Assembly (NCBI RefSeq): GCF_001886815.1
Contig: NZ_CP018099.1
Span: 2,788,501-2,852,500, forward strand
Direction: 5' to 3'
Source: Caldithrix abyssi DSM 13497
GTDB lineage: Bacteria; Calditrichota; Calditrichia; Calditrichales; Calditrichaceae
Length of the DNA stretch: 64,000 nucleotides
Numbering within the stretch: position 1 is the first letter of the stretch; every line of letters starts with the position of its first letter. The notes below the pieces were generated by a model. It was not told the origin of the DNA. It ran no database searches and saw nothing but the letters and a program-made list of their open reading frames with translations. Made by a program: the position numbers and the translations under genes. Below are positions 42,322 to 52,312 of this stretch, piece by piece.

Positions 42322-44026
42322 AGGCTGTTGCAAATTCAGTTTGAGTAAAATTCAAAAAATTTGTAAATTCTGGGCGACAGATAAAACAAGTAATAACAAA
42401 GGAATTCCATGAGTTTTATTACTTATAATCGCTCACAAATGAATCTCTTTGGCTATAGTGTGGAAGATTTTGCCAGAGACGATCCAAAGAGTCGATTTGT
42501 AGTGGAGTTGGTTTCGCGCCTTGATTTAAGTGCACTTTATTCCCGTTATAGTTCACAAGGCGGTGATTCTTATGCCCCAGACATGATGCTTGCCTTATGG
42601 TTTTATGCTTATAGTAACGGCATTACCAGCACCCGTAAGCTGGAGGAATTGTGTAAATATGATACGCGCTACATTTATATCACTGGGAATCAGCATCCGG
42701 ATCATAGTACATTAAGTCGTTTTCGCAAGGCACATTTGGATTTATTAGACCAATATTTTGTAGAGATACTTTTAATTGCCCAGGCCGAAGGCATAAGTAG
42801 TTTCAACCAGATAGCCATAGATGGCACGAAAATCAAAGCGCACAGCAGTAAGCGTCATGGCTACACTGAGGATCAATTAGACAAACGTATAGAGAAGTTA
42901 AGAGCAGAGATCAAGCAATACATGCAGCGCTGTAATTTTGTAGAACAGGGGGCCACGGATGAATTAGATTTAGAAACTCTTCGAGCGGAGAAAGAACGGC
43001 TTGAGCGCTTAGAGAAAGAGATATTAGAACGTAAAGCCCAATTGAAAGAGCGTAAGAAACAGCTCAAATCAGAACACCGTTCAAGACATCAAATAAATGT
43101 AAAAGAGCCGGATGCCCGCATGATGCCTTCGGTGGATGGACCGGGCTATAACGCACAATTAGGCGTAGATATGTCCAGTCATTTAATAGTAGCTCATGAA
43201 GTCGTAAGCCAGCCCAACGACCAGGGTCAATTCATACCGATTCAAGAACAAGTAGAGAAGAATCTTGGTTCAGATGATAAGCGATCTTACACGGCCGATT
43301 CCGGTTATCACAATAGCACAGACCTAAAAGAATTGGAAGAAAAGCAGATTGATGCCGTAATAGCCGATCCCCAGTTATCCAATCGTTCGATAAAGGAGAC
43401 ACCAACCTCCAAGGAAGAATTGCAAAAAGAAGAAAGAAAACTAAAACGAAGTGATTTTGTGTATCATGAACAGGGAGATTACTATGAATGTCCGACGGGT
43501 AAGAAGCTTTTTCCAGTTGAGAGAAATAGCGAACGGATCGTATATCGTTCCAATGATTGTCAGGATTGTCCCTTAATTAATTTATGCATTTCCAGTAAAA
43601 AGAAAGTTAAGCAAATCCATCGTTCAGTTAATGAGAGTTATTGCGAACGTATGGCGAAAAAGTTACAAACTTCAGCGGCGCAGGAACGACTAAAAAAGCG
43701 TTCGGTGACAGTTGAACCTGTTTTTGGTAACTTGAAGCATAATTTAGGCTATCGTGGATTTTCCTTATCTGGTCTTAATAATGTTCGTAGTGAATTTACG
43801 TTAATGTGTATTGGGCATAATATTAATGTTCTATTTAAAAATATGTTAGGGAAACGTTTAGCAGCGTTTATAACAGCATCACAAGAAAAAGATGATCTAT
43901 TAATTTTATTTTCAAAGAATATTTTGGCGTTTTTAATTCTATATTTTGCCCAACGCTTAAGAATGAGAAAAAAATATCAATATCGGAGAATATAAGCATT
44001 AATTCCTCCCCCCCATGCAACAGCCT
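42322..44026 (+). mobile_element. IS1182-like insertion sequence
   Basis: A 1705-bp element with terminal inverted repeats AGGCTGTTGCA (left) and TGCAACAGCCT (right), flanked on both sides by the six bases CCTGGG. Removing it restores CCCGCCTGGGCGGG, the near-palindromic core of a dispersed repeat found elsewhere in the window, so the target is a hairpin-like sequence, as reported for this IS family. It contains one transposase gene and ends 91 bases before the DnaE start. Confidence 0.9.
42409..43995 (+). CDS. IS1182-family transposase
   Basis: A 528-residue transposase, preceded by AAAGGA. The start domain has RSQMNLFGYSVEDFARDDPKSR and the DDE core has IAIDGTKIKAHSSKRHGYT and the later YTADSGYHNSTDLK. 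A coiled, Lys/Glu-rich insert spans about 155-225. The Cys motif CQDCPLINLCISS precedes the terminal VEPVFGNLKHNLGYRGF. The gene appears intact. Confidence 0.9.
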   Translation: MSFITYNRSQMNLFGYSVEDFARDDPKSRFVVELVSRLDLSALYSRYSSQGGDSYAPDMMLALWFYAYSNGITSTRKLEELCKYDTRYIYITGNQHPDHSTLSRFRKAHLDLLDQYFVEILLIAQAEGISSFNQIAIDGTKIKAHSSKRHGYTEDQLDKRIEKLRAEIKQYMQRCNFVEQGATDELDLETLRAEKERLERLEKEILERKAQLKERKKQLKSEHRSRHQINVKEPDARMMPSVDGPGYNAQLGVDMSSHLIVAHEVVSQPNDQGQFIPIQEQVEKNLGSDDKRSYTADSGYHNSTDLKELEEKQIDAVIADPQLSNRSIKETPTSKEELQKEERKLKRSDFVYHEQGDYYECPTGKKLFPVERNSERIVYRSNDCQDCPLINLCISSKKKVKQIHRSVNESYCERMAKKLQTSAAQERLKKRSVTVEPVFGNLKHNLGYRGFSLSGLNNVRSEFTLMCIGHNINVLFKNMLGKRLAAFITASQEKDDLLILFSKNILAFLILYFAQRLRMRKKYQYRRI

Positions 44027-44116
44027 CCTGGGCGGGATCAGAATGACATTTCAGGATGAAAGGGATTCTTCGCTGCGCTCAGAATGACACAAGCAGCAAA
44101 AAAAAGAATGCGAACC

Positions 44117-47100
44117 ATGAACACTTTTGTGCACCTGCACACGCACAGTTATTACAGTTTGTTGGACGGCGTGCCCTCGCCCGAGGAGCTGGTCATCGCC
44201 GCTAAAAAAGCCGGTTTTAAAGCCCTGGCCTTAACCGACCACAACGCCCTGTACGGCGCGGTTACCTTTTACCAGGTCGCCAGAGACTACGGCCTGAAAC
44301 CGATCATTGGCGCGGAGTTGACCATGAACGACGGCTTTCCTCTGCTCTTTCTGGTGCAAAACGAAACCGGTTACCGCAATCTGTGCCAGCTCATTTCCAT
44401 CGGTCGTTTGCGCGGCGGGCATGGCAAATTCAAATTAACCTACAACGACCTTAAACCGCTGACTGAGGGCTTGATCGTCCTTTCCGGCGGGCACAAGGGA
44501 AAAATTTACCACCTGCTCCGCAAACGGCAGATCGATCAGGCCCTGCTGGAGGTGCAGCGCTTGAAAAATCTGTTTGCTAAAAATTTTTACCTGGAAATGC
44601 AGCATTTTTCCAATCAGGACCTGCTGGTCAACCTGCGCCTGCGCGACATCGCCGCTGAAACTAAAACCGAACTGGTGGCCACTAACGACGTACACTTTAA
44701 TTCAGCTAACGACTGGTACCTGCGCCGTATTCTGCACGCCATCGATGCCAACGGCACGCTGGAGCAGGTGACCACCGCCGGCACCTCGCAACAGTATTTG
44801 AAATCGGCTAAAGAAATGCAGGCCCTGTTCAAGGCCTTCCCCACCGCCCTGGCCAATACGCAAAAAATCGCCCGACAGTGCGCCTTTGAATTTCAACTGG
44901 GCAAGCCCATCTTTCCTTCCGTTGAAATTCCCCAAGGCGAAAGCAGTTTTTCCTATTTGTGGAAGCAGTGCTTTGCGGGCGCCAACGAACGCTACCAGCC
45001 CCTGACGCCGCAGGTGATCAAACGTCTGGAATTTGAACTGGAAACCATCCATCAACTGGGCTTTGCCGAGTATTTTTTAATTGTGAAAGACATTGTGGAT
45101 TTTTGCCGGCGCGAACACATTCCCTGTGTGGGACGCGGATCGGCAGCCGATAGCCTGGTGGCTTACGTGTTGGGCATTACCCAGGTGGACCCCATCCGTC
45201 ACAACCTGTACTTTGAACGCTTTCTCAATCCCCAGCGCAGCGATCCGCCGGATATCGACTTAGACATCTGCTGGAAGAACCGCGACCGCGTGCTCAAATA
45301 TGTGTACGACCGCTTCGGTCACAAGCGCACGGCCATGATTTGCACCTTTAACACCTTTCAGAACCGTTCGGCCCTGCGCGATGTGGCCAAAGCCTACGGC
45401 CTGCCCGAAGACGAGATCGCCAAAATTACCAAGTACCTGCCCCACCGGCACATCGATCAGATCGAAGAAGCGGTCAACACCCTGCCCGAGCTTAAAGAAC
45501 TGCGCTACAACCTGACCATGTACGAAGAGATCATGCGCATTGCGCGGCGCATTGCCGATTTTCCGCGCCATCTGTCCATCCATCCCGGCGGGGTAATCAT
45601 CGCGCCGGATCAGATCACGCGCCACGTGCCGCTGGAGGTCGCCGGTAAAGAGATCGTCATTGCGCAGTACGACATGTATTCCATTGAAAAGCTGGGGCTG
45701 GTTAAAATGGATTTGCTGGGCGTGCGTTCCTTAAGCATCATCACCGATTGCCTGAAATCGATTAAGGAACGGCACGGCAACGACCTGCAGCAGCTTAAGG
45801 CGCAACTTTTGCTCAAAAAAAGCGCCGAGCTTTCACCGCTGGATTTGCGCACCATTCCCGAGGACGATCCGGAGGTTACCGCTTTCATTCGTTCCGGCCG
45901 CACCATGGGCTGTTTTCAACTGGAGAGTCCGGCCATGCGCGGGCTGCTGCGAAAGATGCAGATCGAAAGCGTGGACGACGTAATCACCGCAGTGGCGCTC
46001 ATTCGTCCCGGCGCCTCGGGCAGCGGCATGAAAGAGGTGTACATCAAACGGCGCGCCGGACTGGAAAAAACCGCCTACGTGCATCCTTCTCTGGAAGAAC
46101 CGTTAAAAGAAACCTATGGCGTGATTATCTACCAGGAACAGGTGCTCCGGGTGGCGCACGCCGTGGCCGGGTTGTCGCTTGGTCAGGCCGATATTTTACG
46201 GCGCGCTATGACCAAGTCGCGCACCAAAAAAGAATTTTTGGCCATGCGCTCGTCCTTTATTCAGGGCGCCCTGAACAAAGGACTGAACCAGAAGCAGGCC
46301 GAGACGGTTTGGCGTTTTTTAGCGCAATTTGTGGGCTACGGCTTTAACAAGGCACACTCGGCCACTTACGGCACCATCGCCTACCAGACGGCTTTTCTCA
46401 AGTACTATTTCCCGGCAGAATACATGTGCGCCGTGCTCAACAATCAGGGCGGCTTTTACCGTCGGGCAGCCTACGTGGAAGAGGTGCGGCGCCTGGGCAT
46501 TCCCCTGCTGCCGCCGGACGTGACGCAGTCACAGGCCGAATTCACCTGCGAGGGCGACGGCATTCGCGTCGGCCTTTCCACCGTATTCGAACTGAGCGCG
46601 CACACGGTGAAGCGCATCATCGAAGAACGGCAAAAAGCGCCGTTTAAGGATTTATTCGACTTTTTACGACGCACGCGCGCCGGCGAAAAAGAAACGCGTC
46701 ATTTGATTAAGGTCGGCGCCCTGAATGCCCTGTTGCCTAACGAGCCCAAACTGCTTTTGATGAATGAAATTTATTTTAAGAACAAAAAACACGTTTCGCT
46801 CAGCGCCTTTTTAAGCGAAGACGTGGGCCTGGCGCCTTACAATCGCTTTCAGAAAATTGTGAATGAACTGGAACTGCTGGACTTTGCCGTAACCGACCAC
46901 CCGCTCGCCCTTTGCGAGGATCAGATTGCCCGAATTAAACCGGTGTCCTCCTTGGAACTGGAACGGCACAAAAACAAGTGCGTGACCTTTGTGGGCTGGC
47001 TGGTGACCATGCGCCGCGTGCAAACCAAAAACAAAACCATGATGAAGTTTATTACCCTGGAAGACCGCGAAGGATTGGTAGAAGCCGTGTTGTTTGAAAA

Positions 47101-47302
47101 AGCTTACAAAAAGTACGGGCACCTGTTCAAAGGCTACGGACCTTATGTGGTAAAAGGCCGCGTACAATCACGATTACCGGGTGAAGCCAATTTGCTGGTG
47201 GAGGAAGTGGAAGCTTTGCCATTGGAAAAGAAAAAATTGGAAACGAATTCGAATTCATCGATTAAATATGAGCAAATCATGTTCCCGTATTTTCAAAATT
47301 AG
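44117..47302 (+). CDS. DNA polymerase III alpha subunit, short DnaE2/DnaE-like form
   Basis: A 1061-residue C-family polymerase, start at 44117 (MNTFVHLHTHSYYSLLDG). The N-terminal PHP domain has HLHTHSYYSLLDG and ALTDHNALYG with metal-binding His residues. The palm catalytic aspartates are in PPDIDLDI (about 381 and 383). The fingers region has GYGFNKAHSATYGTIAYQ, and an OB-fold lies near the end (VTFVGWLVTMRRVQTKNKTMMKFITLED). The length is nearer the DnaE2/ImuC-type (error-prone) enzymes than the ~1160-residue replicative DnaE, but imuB or lexA genes are not adjacent. The IS1182-like element lies 91 bases upstream and may have replaced its promoter. Confidence 0.85.
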   Translation: MNTFVHLHTHSYYSLLDGVPSPEELVIAAKKAGFKALALTDHNALYGAVTFYQVARDYGLKPIIGAELTMNDGFPLLFLVQNETGYRNLCQLISIGRLRGGHGKFKLTYNDLKPLTEGLIVLSGGHKGKIYHLLRKRQIDQALLEVQRLKNLFAKNFYLEMQHFSNQDLLVNLRLRDIAAETKTELVATNDVHFNSANDWYLRRILHAIDANGTLEQVTTAGTSQQYLKSAKEMQALFKAFPTALANTQKIARQCAFEFQLGKPIFPSVEIPQGESSFSYLWKQCFAGANERYQPLTPQVIKRLEFELETIHQLGFAEYFLIVKDIVDFCRREHIPCVGRGSAADSLVAYVLGITQVDPIRHNLYFERFLNPQRSDPPDIDLDICWKNRDRVLKYVYDRFGHKRTAMICTFNTFQNRSALRDVAKAYGLPEDEIAKITKYLPHRHIDQIEEAVNTLPELKELRYNLTMYEEIMRIARRIADFPRHLSIHPGGVIIAPDQITRHVPLEVAGKEIVIAQYDMYSIEKLGLVKMDLLGVRSLSIITDCLKSIKERHGNDLQQLKAQLLLKKSAELSPLDLRTIPEDDPEVTAFIRSGRTMGCFQLESPAMRGLLRKMQIESVDDVITAVALIRPGASGSGMKEVYIKRRAGLEKTAYVHPSLEEPLKETYGVIIYQEQVLRVAHAVAGLSLGQADILRRAMTKSRTKKEFLAMRSSFIQGALNKGLNQKQAETVWRFLAQFVGYGFNKAHSATYGTIAYQTAFLKYYFPAEYMCAVLNNQGGFYRRAAYVEEVRRLGIPLLPPDVTQSQAEFTCEGDGIRVGLSTVFELSAHTVKRIIEERQKAPFKDLFDFLRRTRAGEKETRHLIKVGALNALLPNEPKLLLMNEIYFKNKKHVSLSAFLSEDVGLAPYNRFQKIVNELELLDFAVTDHPLALCEDQIARIKPVSSLELERHKNKCVTFVGWLVTMRRVQTKNKTMMKFITLEDREGLVEAVLFEKAYKKYGHLFKGYGPYVVKGRVQSRLPGEANLLVEEVEALPLEKKKLETNSNSSIKYEQIMFPYFQN

Positions 47303-47409
47303 CGGGCAATCGGAATGATTTAAATTATTTTTCAGCCATGAAGTACGCTAACAGGTTTACATTGTACTAAACCAATTCAAAATTCAAAATTCATAATTCA
47401 TAATTTCTT

Positions 47410-47433
47410 AAGGCTCCCTTCCCTGAGAGCCTT
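47410..47433. terminator. Bidirectional terminator-like hairpin
   Basis: AAGGCTC and GAGCCTT form a 7-bp stem around a ten-base loop. It lies between the convergent dnaE-like and T9SS genes and is followed by TTTTCTG on the plus strand. Confidence 0.5.
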
Positions 47434-47442
47434 TTCTGAAAT

Positions 47443-48141
47443 TTATTTTACCAGCAACATCTTTTTCAAAAGTCGTTTTTTCCCTGCTCTTAACTCGTAA
47501 AAATACAATCCGCCGGAAACCGGTTGACCGCTTTCGTTTGTGCCATCCCAGTTAATTTGGTGATAACCTTTTGAAATATGCCCATCGATTAGCGTGCGCA
47601 CCTTTTGGCCGTTCATGGAATAAATATTAAGTTGTACATAGCCATCTTCCGGTAAGCCAAACTTAATGGTTGTATTGGGATTGAATGGATTAGGAAAATT
47701 ACCGCTTAGTTCCACTTTTTCCGGAACCTGAACGGCAATTGCGAATGTTTGGGATGATTGTTTGGCCAGAGCGCCGCCGCTAACATGCACTGAAAGAATA
47801 TTTGAAGTTGCCTGATCGCCATAAGAATCAGTAACGATACATTTTAAAGAAAAACTGTATGTTCTGGAAATGGTGATTTGCTGCTTATCCGGTCCGCTGG
47901 TTAAATACACCCACTGATTAGAGGGCGGAGCTAAAATGGTATTTCCTCCGTTTACTGAATATGGTTCCAGATCGTCCTTCCGTTCCCACCATTCGTAATC
48001 GGTGTAAGTCCCGCTGCCGCCGGAAGGATGTGCGGTGTAGGTACCACTTTGGCCAGAGTTGAGCGATGTTGGGCCGGTAATCGTTACTTCAAGAGGTTGT
48101 GGGGGAAATTGAGTGGGATCATTTATATACGTCTTTATGTT
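47443..48141 (-). pseudogene. Ig-like and Type IX sorting domains cut off from the beta-helix protein by an in-frame stop
   Basis: This is the carboxyl part of a secreted protein, in the same reading frame as the upstream 530-codon gene and separated from it by only one TAA. The open frame reads through a bacterial Ig/PKD-like region (PLEVTITGPTSLNSGQSGTY, then DSYGDQATSNILSVHVSGG) and ends with a T9SS sorting domain (GNFPNPFNPNTTIKFGL, VRTLIDGHISKGYHQINWDG, GLYFYELRAGKKR). No ribosome site or start codon is visible near its beginning, so it is probably either an inactivated tail or a read-through part of the larger gene. Confidence 0.8.
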
Positions 48142-49734
48142 TTAATAAAACCATCTTTCTCGCGCTGGAATTGATTGTGTAATGTTGTCATCGGGATGTA
48201 CTGCAGGTCCGCACGAAGGCCAGGAATAATTTCCATAAGATACATCTAAAAAATCGGGCCTCGAACTGTAATAATAAGAAATATCTTTCATTAAAAGATA
48301 AGGCCGCTCACCAGCAATATATGAATTGTTATGATTCCATGGATAATAAGGAATATTATCAATATACATTTCAAACCCATAAATATCAGTATCAGGAGTA
48401 TATTCATAACCTAAGGGGGGATAAACAAACGGATCACTGTTTGCATTGCCATTATTGCATCCTAAAATATTACAATGTTTCGCATTGAGTAACCCTATAA
48501 AATAAAGATAATTTTCATCATCATTGTAAACTATATTTCTTACAAAAGTGTTGAATGGGCCATTCATTCCATGTTCATCATCTGCTTTAATATATTCTAC
48601 ATTATTTTCTTCAAATAAATTTGAATATGGAAAATTACCATGAATACAGATATCAGCCCCTTGAATCGGATAATTCCATTCCTGTTCTCTTGAATAATTA
48701 TATGTAAAAACATTACAATTTGCACCTGCTTGAACAACCATTGAATGTCTTAACTTTCTAAAAATATTATTTTGTATAAGACAATTAGTTGTACTAAAAT
48801 TTAATACAACTCCATAGCCAAACCCACCATCGCCTTTAAAATTTGCATCGTTTAAATAACAACCACTCACTTCTATACAGGAAGAATATCTAATATCAAT
48901 ATGATGACGGCATGTATAATTAAATTGAACACCTTTAACCCAACAATTAACCGCATAAATAAAGAAAATATTTGAACCGGTAGCATTAGTTGTATATCCA
49001 TTATCATTTCTATTTATTGTTAATTTTTCAATCCCAATATTTTTAATAGTTTTTATTCTCCAAATTCTTAAGTTATTACCAAAACTATAATCTTTTGAAG
49101 CCTCATCTTTTAATTCAGCTGTATTCCCTTCAATATTAACTATTTGCGTTATTTGACCAATGCTGTGTTGAGCCCAGTCATCTGCTACTCCATGACTATA
49201 CTCACATAATCTAATCCAATCGCCAACATTTAAATTATTAATTCCATTCCCGCTTATAATTTTTTCACCTTTTTGAATCCCTGAATTTAAATAAATTGGA
49301 CCTAAATCTTGTTTTCCATAAATTTTAAAACAGTAATTATTTTTACCAACATAAAAATTTAATATGGTTTTATCTGACCCGTCTCCCTGGAAAATAATAT
49401 TACTATCATTACTATCTACATTTATAGAAATTGTATTATTAAATGTATAGCTTCCGGCTGGGAAATATATTATAGATACTCCATTAGCATTTTCAGCATC
49501 TTTTATTGCGTTTTTTATTTCACCATCAAAATTAGAATCATTATCATCTCTGTATTTTGGAGCTGTAACATCAAAAACATGATCCGCATTGATAGGGTTA
49601 TCCCAAATTAACCCAGCATTTGACCAGTTAACTCTACTTGATTCTGATATATGTCCCTGGTTATTCCATAAAGATTGCGCAACTAAATTAGAAAGTAATA
49701 TAATAAAAACATAAATTGATATTCTTGTTAACAT
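48142..49734 (-). CDS. Secreted right-handed parallel beta-helix protein, truncated before its sorting domain
   Basis: A 530-residue protein with a signal peptide (about 1-18, ending NLVAQ). The long body is rich in Asn, Ile and Tyr and reads like a parallel beta-helix, as in pectate lyases and carbohydrate-binding proteins: AENANGVSIIYFPAGSYTF, FQGDGSDKTILNFYVGK, KNIGIEKLTINRNDNG, YSSCIEVSGCYLND and QNNIFRKLRHSM. Its base composition is strongly AT-rich compared with the chromosome, suggesting acquired DNA. TAA at 48144-48142 ends the frame, but the same frame continues without stops into Ig-like and T9SS domains. The intended product would be ~763 residues. Confidence 0.75.
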   Translation of the reverse strand: MLTRISIYVFIILLSNLVAQSLWNNQGHISESSRVNWSNAGLIWDNPINADHVFDVTAPKYRDDNDSNFDGEIKNAIKDAENANGVSIIYFPAGSYTFNNTISINVDSNDSNIIFQGDGSDKTILNFYVGKNNYCFKIYGKQDLGPIYLNSGIQKGEKIISGNGINNLNVGDWIRLCEYSHGVADDWAQHSIGQITQIVNIEGNTAELKDEASKDYSFGNNLRIWRIKTIKNIGIEKLTINRNDNGYTTNATGSNIFFIYAVNCWVKGVQFNYTCRHHIDIRYSSCIEVSGCYLNDANFKGDGGFGYGVVLNFSTTNCLIQNNIFRKLRHSMVVQAGANCNVFTYNYSREQEWNYPIQGADICIHGNFPYSNLFEENNVEYIKADDEHGMNGPFNTFVRNIVYNDDENYLYFIGLLNAKHCNILGCNNGNANSDPFVYPPLGYEYTPDTDIYGFEMYIDNIPYYPWNHNNSYIAGERPYLLMKDISYYYSSRPDFLDVSYGNYSWPSCGPAVHPDDNITQSIPARERWFY

Positions 49735-49751
49735 TTTTTTTAACCTCCAAT

Positions 49752-50099
49752 TTAAAACTGCAATCCAAATAAAATATAAAAAGTATTTATTTTTGAATTT
49801 ATTGGTGTAATATTATCAAACCAATAGTTTTTATCATTATTTATTAGATATCTAACATCTAATAAATAATATAAATAATGTATTTGAAAACCAATATTTA
49901 ATAGAATATTAGAATTATTATTTCCAAAACCTAATTCTTGTAAAAATGAATAATCATATTTAAATGGTGAAGGATTATTTGGATCAAATACTTCTAAAAA
50001 TTTCTTCTTTTTATATTTTGTAAAATCTATTAATGGTATTGAATATGATGGGCCTGCATATAATGATACGAAATATTTTTTTGTTAATAAAAAATTATA
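49752..50099 (-). pseudogene. C-terminal fragment of an outer-membrane beta-barrel protein
   Basis: About 115 codons read YFVSLYAGPSYSIPLIDFTK, QELGFGNNNSNILLNIGFQ, YLLDVRYLIN and end FYILFGLQF before TAA. Alternating hydrophobic strands and a final Phe are typical of outer-membrane beta barrels of the FCB group. The amino-terminal part is missing: the frame meets the IS1380-like element and nothing recognisable as its start lies beyond it. It was AT-rich and probably co-transcribed with the downstream beta-helix gene. Confidence 0.65.
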
Positions 50100-51743
50100 C
50101 CTAAATTTCTAAAGTAAAAAATTTTAACAAAAAAATAGTATTGCCCTGTATTTACTAAGAGAATTATTTCCCCTAAATTTTAGAAAAATCTACCTAAAAT
50201 TGCCATTATTTTACTCAATTCTTTTTCATTAGACGATTTTTCCTGTTACGAAACATTGAATTGGACGTACCTCGCCCTTTTATTCTTTTTAAAAAAATCA
50301 GACACAAAATTTTTATGAATCTTTGTTAATTTCTTACGTAAAACTCAAGGCGTCTATTCTTGAATCTATTTTAGACCACCAGCTCTTGTAATAATAAGAA
50401 CTGTACATTCTTAGGTGTACTTGTCTGGCCGATTTGGTAATCTTTCCGGCTAATTGAATAAACCAGAGTCTAAAACTATGGGGCTCCTGGCGCCAGGCCT
50501 TCTCATCGGTTAATTTCCGAAACCAAACACTTATATTGTAAGCCAATACACTTAAAAGAAAAAATGTTTCATTTACCCAAAAATCTTTGGTCAAAATCAT
50601 ACCAGCATATAATTGATTTTTGACCGCCTCGATCCAGTTCTCGCTCTCTCCACGATCTCCATATAAATGATGTATATAAAGCGGGCTTTCTTCTATATTG
50701 GTGACATAACAAAAATAAGTATATTGTTTGTAAGGAAATAAACTGTCTTTTTCTACTATCTTCTCAAATTTACGTAACGCTACAAAACGTCTGGCCTTTG
50801 ACCAACCTTGCGCACGATAATAAAATTCGCTCATCTCCCAACCTTCTAATTCCGGAATTGATTCCCAATCCTGGTCCTTTAGTAGATGTTCCAGATTTTT
50901 TAACTTGACTTTGACTAAATATTGAATCTGGCCGGAGTAACTTTCTAATAGGCTCAGAACTTTGTCATTAAAAAAGCCACTATCGGCACGGACAATTAAA
51001 AATCTTATTTGCTTGACTATCATAGAAAGCACCTGTTTTAAAAAGGCATCCGCATTATTGGCGGTGTAGGCATCCCCAGGTCGAAGCCAGGCCGCAATAC
51101 ACTCTTTGGTACTGTTGAGAAAAGCTAATAAGGGATGGTAGCTACGTTTGCCTTTATGCCTGGGATTAAATCCTTTTTTTGCACCTTCTTGTTTGCCATA
51201 GACCGTCTGAACCGTAGAATCCAAATCCAATATATCACGCTTTGTATGAAGTCTTCTATGAATCTTATTAGACAGAAAACCAATGACTTCTATTAATTGA
51301 TTATTCTGACGAAAACTGAACTTTTTGAAACGATATCGGATCGTGTCAATATCCAAATGCCCATTGAGATCAAATAAGTGATGGATTAAAGGGTCTAAAC
51401 TAAAATGTTCGATTTTTAAAAGACGATCCATACCGCCGAGTAAACCAAGAATCATTATATTGAAAATTTGAGCCAATGAATATTTTTGATTATGTCTTCC
51501 CTCTATGGTAAGTTTGGTTTCTATTAGTTTATCTATCCCTAACTTTTTCATGAATTTGTAAATTGGATATAAGCCGGAATAATTAGTTAAATTGCCGCCT
51601 GTAAAAGAAGTTTTGACACTTTTATGATTATTTTTTATTTTCATCTACAAGGTGCTCCTTTCTTTTGTTTTTTTGTTTTTGTAACTAACTTAATTTACAA
51701 ATAATTGGAGCACCTTTCATCTTTTTTACATTAGAAATTTAGG
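50100..51743 (-). mobile_element. IS1380-like insertion sequence
   Basis: A 1644-bp element bounded by inverted repeats: left CCTAAATTTCTAAAGTAAAA and right TTTTACATTAGAAATTTAGG, with one mismatch over about 22 positions. It holds an intact transposase gene. It truncates an outer-membrane protein gene. No clear target duplication was seen, which suggests later rearrangement of the flank. Confidence 0.88.
50334..51644 (-). CDS. IS1380-family transposase
   Basis: A 436-residue DDE transposase. It shows the IS1380 pattern: TSFTGGNLTNYSGLYPIYKF at the start, ILDLDSTVQTVYGKQEGAKKG with the first catalytic Asp, FLIVRADSGFFNDKVL with the second, and YGDRGESENWIEAVKNQL with the catalytic Glu. It appears intact. 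Confidence 0.9.
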   Translation of the reverse strand: MKIKNNHKSVKTSFTGGNLTNYSGLYPIYKFMKKLGIDKLIETKLTIEGRHNQKYSLAQIFNIMILGLLGGMDRLLKIEHFSLDPLIHHLFDLNGHLDIDTIRYRFKKFSFRQNNQLIEVIGFLSNKIHRRLHTKRDILDLDSTVQTVYGKQEGAKKGFNPRHKGKRSYHPLLAFLNSTKECIAAWLRPGDAYTANNADAFLKQVLSMIVKQIRFLIVRADSGFFNDKVLSLLESYSGQIQYLVKVKLKNLEHLLKDQDWESIPELEGWEMSEFYYRAQGWSKARRFVALRKFEKIVEKDSLFPYKQYTYFCYVTNIEESPLYIHHLYGDRGESENWIEAVKNQLYAGMILTKDFWVNETFFLLSVLAYNISVWFRKLTDEKAWRQEPHSFRLWFIQLAGKITKSARQVHLRMYSSYYYKSWWSKIDSRIDALSFT

Positions 51744-51868
51744 TACTAATTTAAATTTTTAATCTTAACCAAACCAATCATCCCAACTTTTTACATTTAT
51801 TCTAACAAATCGAAAAATTTTAATATCAAAACAGAAAAATTTTAAATTTATTTTGGTAAGCAGAATAC

Positions 51869-51914
<46 letters not shown>

Positions 51915-52165
51915 TTGGTTGAATGGTTGAATGGTTGAATTTTAAAAGGCGTAATGGATTATTAAAAAATCGTTCAAAAAACAACAAGAAAAAAACTAAA
52001 AATCGTTTAAAAAGAATTTCTTGATTTTTCAACATCTTAAACATAAAAATTTGAGGTTCATTTTTGCTCATTGAAATTATACTAAAGATTGTAAAAAATG
52101 TCAAAAATTTTTGTGTATTTTTTCTCTATTTTTTTCGACCGCAACAAAATTAAACAATTGGCCGT

Positions 52166-52312
52166 TATGGGCTGGCTGGTGACTATGCGCCGTGTGCAAT
52201 CCCGCCTGACCACAATAAATCGGGATCTCCGCTTAGCTCCGACCGGCGAGGCCCATTTGCTGGTGGATGAAGTGGACGTTTTGCCATTGGAAAGGGAAAC
52301 GCTGGAAACAAC
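52166..52312 (+). pseudogene. Relic of the 3' end of the dnaE-like gene
   Basis: This segment encodes GWLVTMRRVQ, then SRL and TGEAHLLVDEVDVLPLERETLE, matching the end of the polymerase at 44117-47302 (GWLVTMRRVQ, VQSRLPGEANLLVEEVEALPLEKKKLE). The ~40 codons between the two blocks are deleted and replaced by a short unrelated sequence. The breakpoint is at a CGCGTGCAA-like motif that occurs at both places in the intact gene. A dispersed TCTGCGTAATCTGCGTGAA module (52375-52405) follows. Confidence 0.85.

Follow-up and report, generated by a model that had tools for sequence, protein, structure and literature searches.

Organization of the interrupted gene

The window analyzed here, a 64,000-nt stretch of the Caldithrix abyssi DSM 13497 genome, carries on its minus strand a reading frame of 764 codons (49734–47443) that is interrupted only once before its end, by the TAA of codon 531 (48142–48144). 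Translation of all 764 codons bore out the preliminary description, in which this frame had been reported as open except at that one codon. The part upstream of the stop is referred to below as the passenger, and the features of the frame are as follows:

49744..49748, minus strand: GGAGG, likely ribosome-binding site, 9 nt upstream of the ATG (sequence reading)
48145..49734, minus strand: passenger ORF of 530 codons, N-terminal hydrophobic helix followed by a right-handed beta-helix, pectate-lyase-like (ORF, PF12708, structure model, Foldseek)
48142..48144, minus strand: TAA, nonsense codon 531 (translation; sense codon in the aligned relative L037)
48088..48141, minus strand: codons 532–549, after the stop but passenger-derived (identity to L037 over aligned residues; KTYI-like motif also in L038; low GC3)
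47446..48087, minus strand: native tail module, codons 550–763 (DNA identity to the congener G002, codon-position differences, Pfam/NCBIfam profiles, model strands)
about codons 549–652 and about codons 675–763, minus strand: within the tail, Ig-like strands and T9SS sorting domain, respectively (model and profiles)
47443..47445, minus strand: terminal TAA of the frame (translation)

In the Pfam search, the passenger matched PF12708 at 30.2 bits (cut-off, 27) over residues 64–127 only, and its AlphaFold2 model (pLDDT 75.8, pTM 0.83) is a right-handed beta-helix with a hydrophobic helix at residues 2–17 of the N-terminus. Along the whole frame, the AlphaFold2 models place, after the beta-helix, a short helix (523–529) and a poorly predicted linker; the Ig-like sandwich then starts at 549 and the sorting domain at 675. 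Both the profile match and the predicted fold are shared with right-handed beta-helix proteins of the pectate-lyase superfamily (PF12708; polysaccharide lyases, tailspike depolymerases, and alginate epimerases), and Foldseek found the model to resemble polysaccharide lyases and tailspike depolymerases in the PDB with E values down to 3.5e-13. In contrast to those proteins, the passenger has no sequence relative in the PDB, its query TM-scores are low (0.18–0.46 across the 50 matches listed), and its activity and substrate are putative. Proteins of this kind usually bind or cut sugar polymers, and the passenger is likely to be a polysaccharide lyase, a hydrolase, or a binding protein; conserved polar residues between 330 and 400 in A3 are no more than suggestive of a carbohydrate-active enzyme.

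The part following the stop matches PF13860 (41.1 bits) and PF18962 (28.8 bits; both cut-offs, 27), as well as TIGR04183 (28.8 bits; cut-off, 23), confirming that Ig-like and T9SS sorting domains lie downstream of the TAA in the same frame, as had been proposed. This tail runs for 232 codons without a stop, a state that is not due to chance: none of 2000 random sequences of the same length, generated with a first-order Markov model, was free of stops (mean, 10 stops), and the five remaining frames over the tail contain 11–14 stops.

With respect to secretion, the genome encodes SprA_N (PF14349; 110.3 bits, cut-off 27) at C1:3553396–3554700, SprA being the component of the T9SS translocon family that was searched for. 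In excerpts of the genome paper, no Bacteroidetes-type gliding machinery is reported, and the term "type IX" is absent from its main text (PMC5317091). Tail-like domains occur at 128 places in the C. abyssi genome, one of them itself FlgD-like, and elsewhere in the phylum the Ig-plus-T9SS tail is joined to several different passengers, for instance metallopeptidase-like and CHAP-like ones (names based on a reading of the sequences by eye). The gene is thus like a T9SS type A cargo (PF18962/TIGR04183) in having a tail above both cut-offs, an N-terminal hydrophobic helix, and a genome containing SprA and many tail domains; it differs in that its sorting domain is cut from the passenger by the TAA, the translated product lacking that domain. 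A literature search retrieved nothing on C-terminal domain shuffling in type IX secretion, on type IX secretion in Calditrichaeota, or on the window locus.

Junction between acquired and native DNA

It had been proposed that the DNA is AT-rich before the stop and has the GC content of the host after it. The composition step is real, but it is located near codon 556 rather than at the TAA. GC3 in 50-codon bins is 0.10–0.28 up to codon 550 and 0.36–0.52 beyond; at finer resolution, it is still 0.27–0.33 for codons 526–555, with the rise starting near codon 556, about 25 codons past the stop (0.27 in codons 541–555, 0.47 in codons 556–570, and 0.73 in codons 571–585). A comparable step was present in none of nine homologous genes profiled in the same way.

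The nearest homologue of the passenger, L037, is a single unbroken ORF of 750 codons in which beta-helix, Ig domain, and T9SS tail follow in the same order. It is found on a MAG contig labelled Thiotrichaceae, i.e., another phylum, a label that is doubtful for a T9SS protein. Identity to L037 is 330/518 over passenger residues and 9/15 for codons 532–549, falling to 71/179 for codons 550–763. Because codons 532–549 still align with the passenger of L037, the codons immediately after the stop belong to the passenger. The tail, for its part, resembles one in the congener G002 (78% DNA identity, 80% protein identity), the DNA match starting exactly at 48087, and the differences between the two fall mostly at third codon positions (27/23/85 by position). 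The drop in identity to L037, the start of the G002 match, and the rise in GC3 agree in placing the junction at codon 549/550 (48087/48088 of the window) or just after it, native DNA starting there as judged by sequence comparison. Consequently, the TAA lies inside acquired DNA and not at the junction. Fusion of an acquired passenger to a native secretion module, as suggested in the preliminary description, is supported by the similarity of the tail to that of G002 and by the absence of the passenger from all three congeners searched, with the point of fusion corrected to codon 549/550.

The passenger is present in 4 of the 98 genomes in the search of relatives, including C. abyssi itself, where it is single-copy; its homologues are mostly on short MAG contigs. 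Three of the five other copies in the phylum (L033, L034, and L036, all from other Calditrichota) are fragments or frameshifted, and it seems that either the passenger decays often after arrival or these MAG contigs are faulty. A phage or plasmid origin was rejected: comparison with phages and plasmids gave no match, and viral contigs gave only matches at 23–27% identity.

Nature and age of the stop codon

The reading favored here, with a probability of roughly 0.7, is that of a chimeric gene for a T9SS-exported beta-helix protein, inactivated by one nonsense mutation. Every one of the 26 homologues extending as far as a conserved PAxxR-type motif goes on for 13–515 residues beyond it, compared with 3 in the window gene; 5 of the 31 loci were left out of this count as truncated, short, or local-only matches, and 2 of the 26 (L056 and L060) carry frame breaks of their own. 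Together with the unbroken frame of L037, which has a sense codon at the corresponding position, these extensions support the earlier suggestion of a nonsense mutation following the fusion, and the sequence comparisons indicate that the stop is most likely a lesion.

It is least probable, among the readings weighed, that the TAA is the natural end of the passenger and is followed by an independent gene encoding the tail. Upstream of the stop the beta-helix is modelled in full, and two short homologues without a sorting tail, L038 and L040, terminate soon after the PAxxR-type motif, but the first 18 codons past the stop resemble passenger sequence, no Shine-Dalgarno-like sequence precedes any of the nine in-frame start codons downstream of it, and the tail shows no N-terminal hydrophobic stretch by eye, leaving it without a route to the T9SS. 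A natural end at the TAA was rejected on the 26 homologues that read on and on those post-stop codons, and the same survey of start codons makes an independent start for the tail, named earlier as an outcome that would overturn the proposal, unlikely. A tail-less form of the passenger may nevertheless work, given L038 and L040.

The condition of the tail bears on the age of the stop. Its profile score of 2.48 per site equals the maximum among 32 intact tails (2.48), and it differs at just 1 of 25 strongly conserved positions. With the tail thus undecayed, the stop probably arose recently, as far as sequence can date it. The G002 tail is an orphan with its own stop, with no open passenger and with AT-rich, stop-filled DNA upstream; it scores 2.21 and has two changes at conserved positions, as many as are found in several intact tails. 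The history of the tail may therefore have included periods without a passenger, as in G002. This raises the alternative, considered unlikely, that the chimera never worked, the passenger having fallen in frame by chance beside an orphaned tail and the TAA being part of a dead junction. The orphaned state of the G002 tail, another orphan tail in the C. abyssi genome (C1:4385341), and the broken state of most passenger copies elsewhere in the phylum agree with such an origin. Against it, the junction falls where a passenger would naturally give way to the Ig domain, frame and domain order being those of L037, and retention of all but one of the strongly conserved positions would not be expected after long disuse.

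An undecayed tail would be equally expected from functional read-through, which counts against the nonsense-broken reading. Programmed or regulated UAA read-through yielding a small exported fraction is further favored by the predicted position of the stop in a flexible linker past the last helix, where decoding it would probably be harmless to both domains. Read-through of TAA is, however, rare in bacteria. RNA downstream of the stop folds no better than shuffled sequences (z 0.94), and a TAA-split passenger was found in none of 19 other short tail frames of the genome (the 19 shortest open tail frames besides the window gene, the other 108 places having open frames of at least 462 aa). Read-through at this codon is accordingly regarded as highly improbable, and genome-wide TAA read-through was rejected on the lack of a second TAA-split tail among the 19 short frames inspected. 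Nor is there a slippage-prone repeat at the stop; runs of five or six bases occur elsewhere, with the frame intact there. The read-through or phase switching that had been envisaged thus finds no support: the stop is a substitution-type nonsense codon, with the frame undisturbed, no slippery repeat, no notable RNA structure, and no recurrence among the frames inspected.

Among the short tail frames inspected, the only other one split by one stop is that of a redoxin-like protein with a T9SS tail (L097, 4754 onward; about C1:4181253), in which an in-frame TGA falls at a CxxC motif (GYS-U-PFC). SelB scores over its cut-off in this genome; the TGA most likely encodes selenocysteine, and the sequence probably specifies an exported selenoprotein.

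A one-base sequencing or assembly error at codon 531 is improbable. One assembly is the sole source of the sequence, and a TAA is a single base from several sense codons, but errors of 454 sequencing are mainly indels, while the frame is undisturbed on either side of the TAA. Moreover, according to an excerpt of the genome paper, the Caldithrix abyssi LF13 genome was determined at about 81x Illumina and 31x 454 coverage with base correction by Illumina reads (PMC5317091).

For the nonsense-broken chimera, the following course of events is proposed. An AT-rich beta-helix passenger would have been acquired horizontally, entering at the dnaE 3′ end, and would have been fused in frame to a tail that the genus already possessed, the fusion point being the natural start of the Ig domain and the result a working Sec- and T9SS-dependent cargo protein; a recent substitution would then have turned codon 531 into TAA. 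The predicted 530-residue product would retain inner membrane crossing and beta-helix folding, would have lost T9SS export, and would be periplasmic, the tail not being made. The broken gene itself is ordinary, another horizontally acquired secreted protein inactivated by a nonsense mutation. It also illustrates cleanly, in a natural setting, how T9SS cargo can arise: a foreign passenger is attached, at a domain boundary, to a sorting tail already in residence.

Possible cargo exchange at the 3′ end of dnaE

The window gene is located in an AT-rich island at the dnaE 3′ end; an IS1380 copy adjoins the gene, and across the island lies another dnaE 3′ end, a degenerate one:

44084..47302, plus strand: dnaE-type DNA polymerase III alpha gene, its 3′ end bordering the island
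47375..47434, plus strand: 60-bp repeat in the interval from dnaE to the tail gene; G001 has it twice, in both cases immediately ahead of a T9SS cargo gene
50086..51757, minus strand: IS1380-family insertion sequence; transposase 50334–51644, terminal inverted repeats within 50086–50121 and 51722–51757
52159..52309, plus strand: second, degenerate copy of the dnaE 3′ end, 83–86% identical to 46983–47026 and 47180–47244 (alignment)

The island is therefore flanked by a duplicated target-gene 3′ end (46983–47244 in dnaE and 52159–52309). Among ORFs of 80 aa or more, the island (47303–52158) contains only the passenger, the tail, and the IS1380 transposase, with no ORF of the size of a site-specific recombinase or integrase. 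The transposase matches NF033539 at 313.5 bits (cut-off, 180), and the element is 99.7% identical to a copy near C1:145000. A run of GATA tetranucleotide repeats lies at about 51871–51911, between the IS1380 copy and the second dnaE 3′ end.

In the congener G001, the same dnaE is followed by three T9SS cargo genes and more dnaE 3′ ends. A 434-bp block comprising a dnaE 3′ end, the 60-bp spacer, and a T9SS tail occurs there twice (L136, 4315–4746 and 9512–9945) at 94.5% identity, and beyond it the DNA identity of the two cargo genes drops to about 42–45%. At their C-termini the two cargo proteins can still be aligned across 198 residues at 54%, a large part of which is the shared tail, and this alignment indicates that the G001 passengers are not wholly unrelated there. 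The repetition of one block under differing cargo suggests exchange of passengers at this locus. In G002, where a dnaE 3′ end lies close to a contig edge, the DNA immediately after it corresponds to what lies beyond the cargo in G001, and this looks like an emptier site. Within C. abyssi, a second region (L073, C1:4378000–4396000) lacks dnaE itself and has degenerate dnaE 3′ ends among T9SS cargo, an orphan tail, and IS fragments:

L073 5336–5538, 6621–6732, 8843–9120, and 12703–13016: degenerate dnaE 3′ ends interspersed with the other elements

Four more distant family members gave one T9SS tail, about 4.4 kb beyond dnaE, with L138 covering about 570 bases beyond dnaE, a weak sign from sequence that the array is confined to the genus.

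Collectively, these features make the dnaE 3′ end look like a hotspot at which AT-rich T9SS cargo inserts. More tentatively, and with the balance of probability against it, the Caldithrix dnaE 3′ end could be a T9SS cargo-exchange array, in which foreign passengers are captured before the block of dnaE end, 60-bp spacer, and Ig-T9SS tail, and recombination within the block swaps them; the window gene would be one such swap, since silenced by its stop. In the excerpted account of polymorphic secreted proteins and CDI/Rhs orphan modules (PMC3150448), a conserved delivery part, exchangeable cargo, and nearby orphan remnants are described, and the window locus resembles those systems in all three. 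It differs from them as so described in that its conserved part is the C-terminal T9SS tail plus the dnaE 3′ end, no toxin/immunity pair was identified, and exchange is putative. This dnaE-end locus, where passenger grafting seems to have been repeated, is a more interesting lead than the broken gene.

A second transposase gene (42409–43995), presumably IS1182-like, lies directly before dnaE, and a copy of its 3′ part, 99.4% identical, is located at 2755–3793 of L073.
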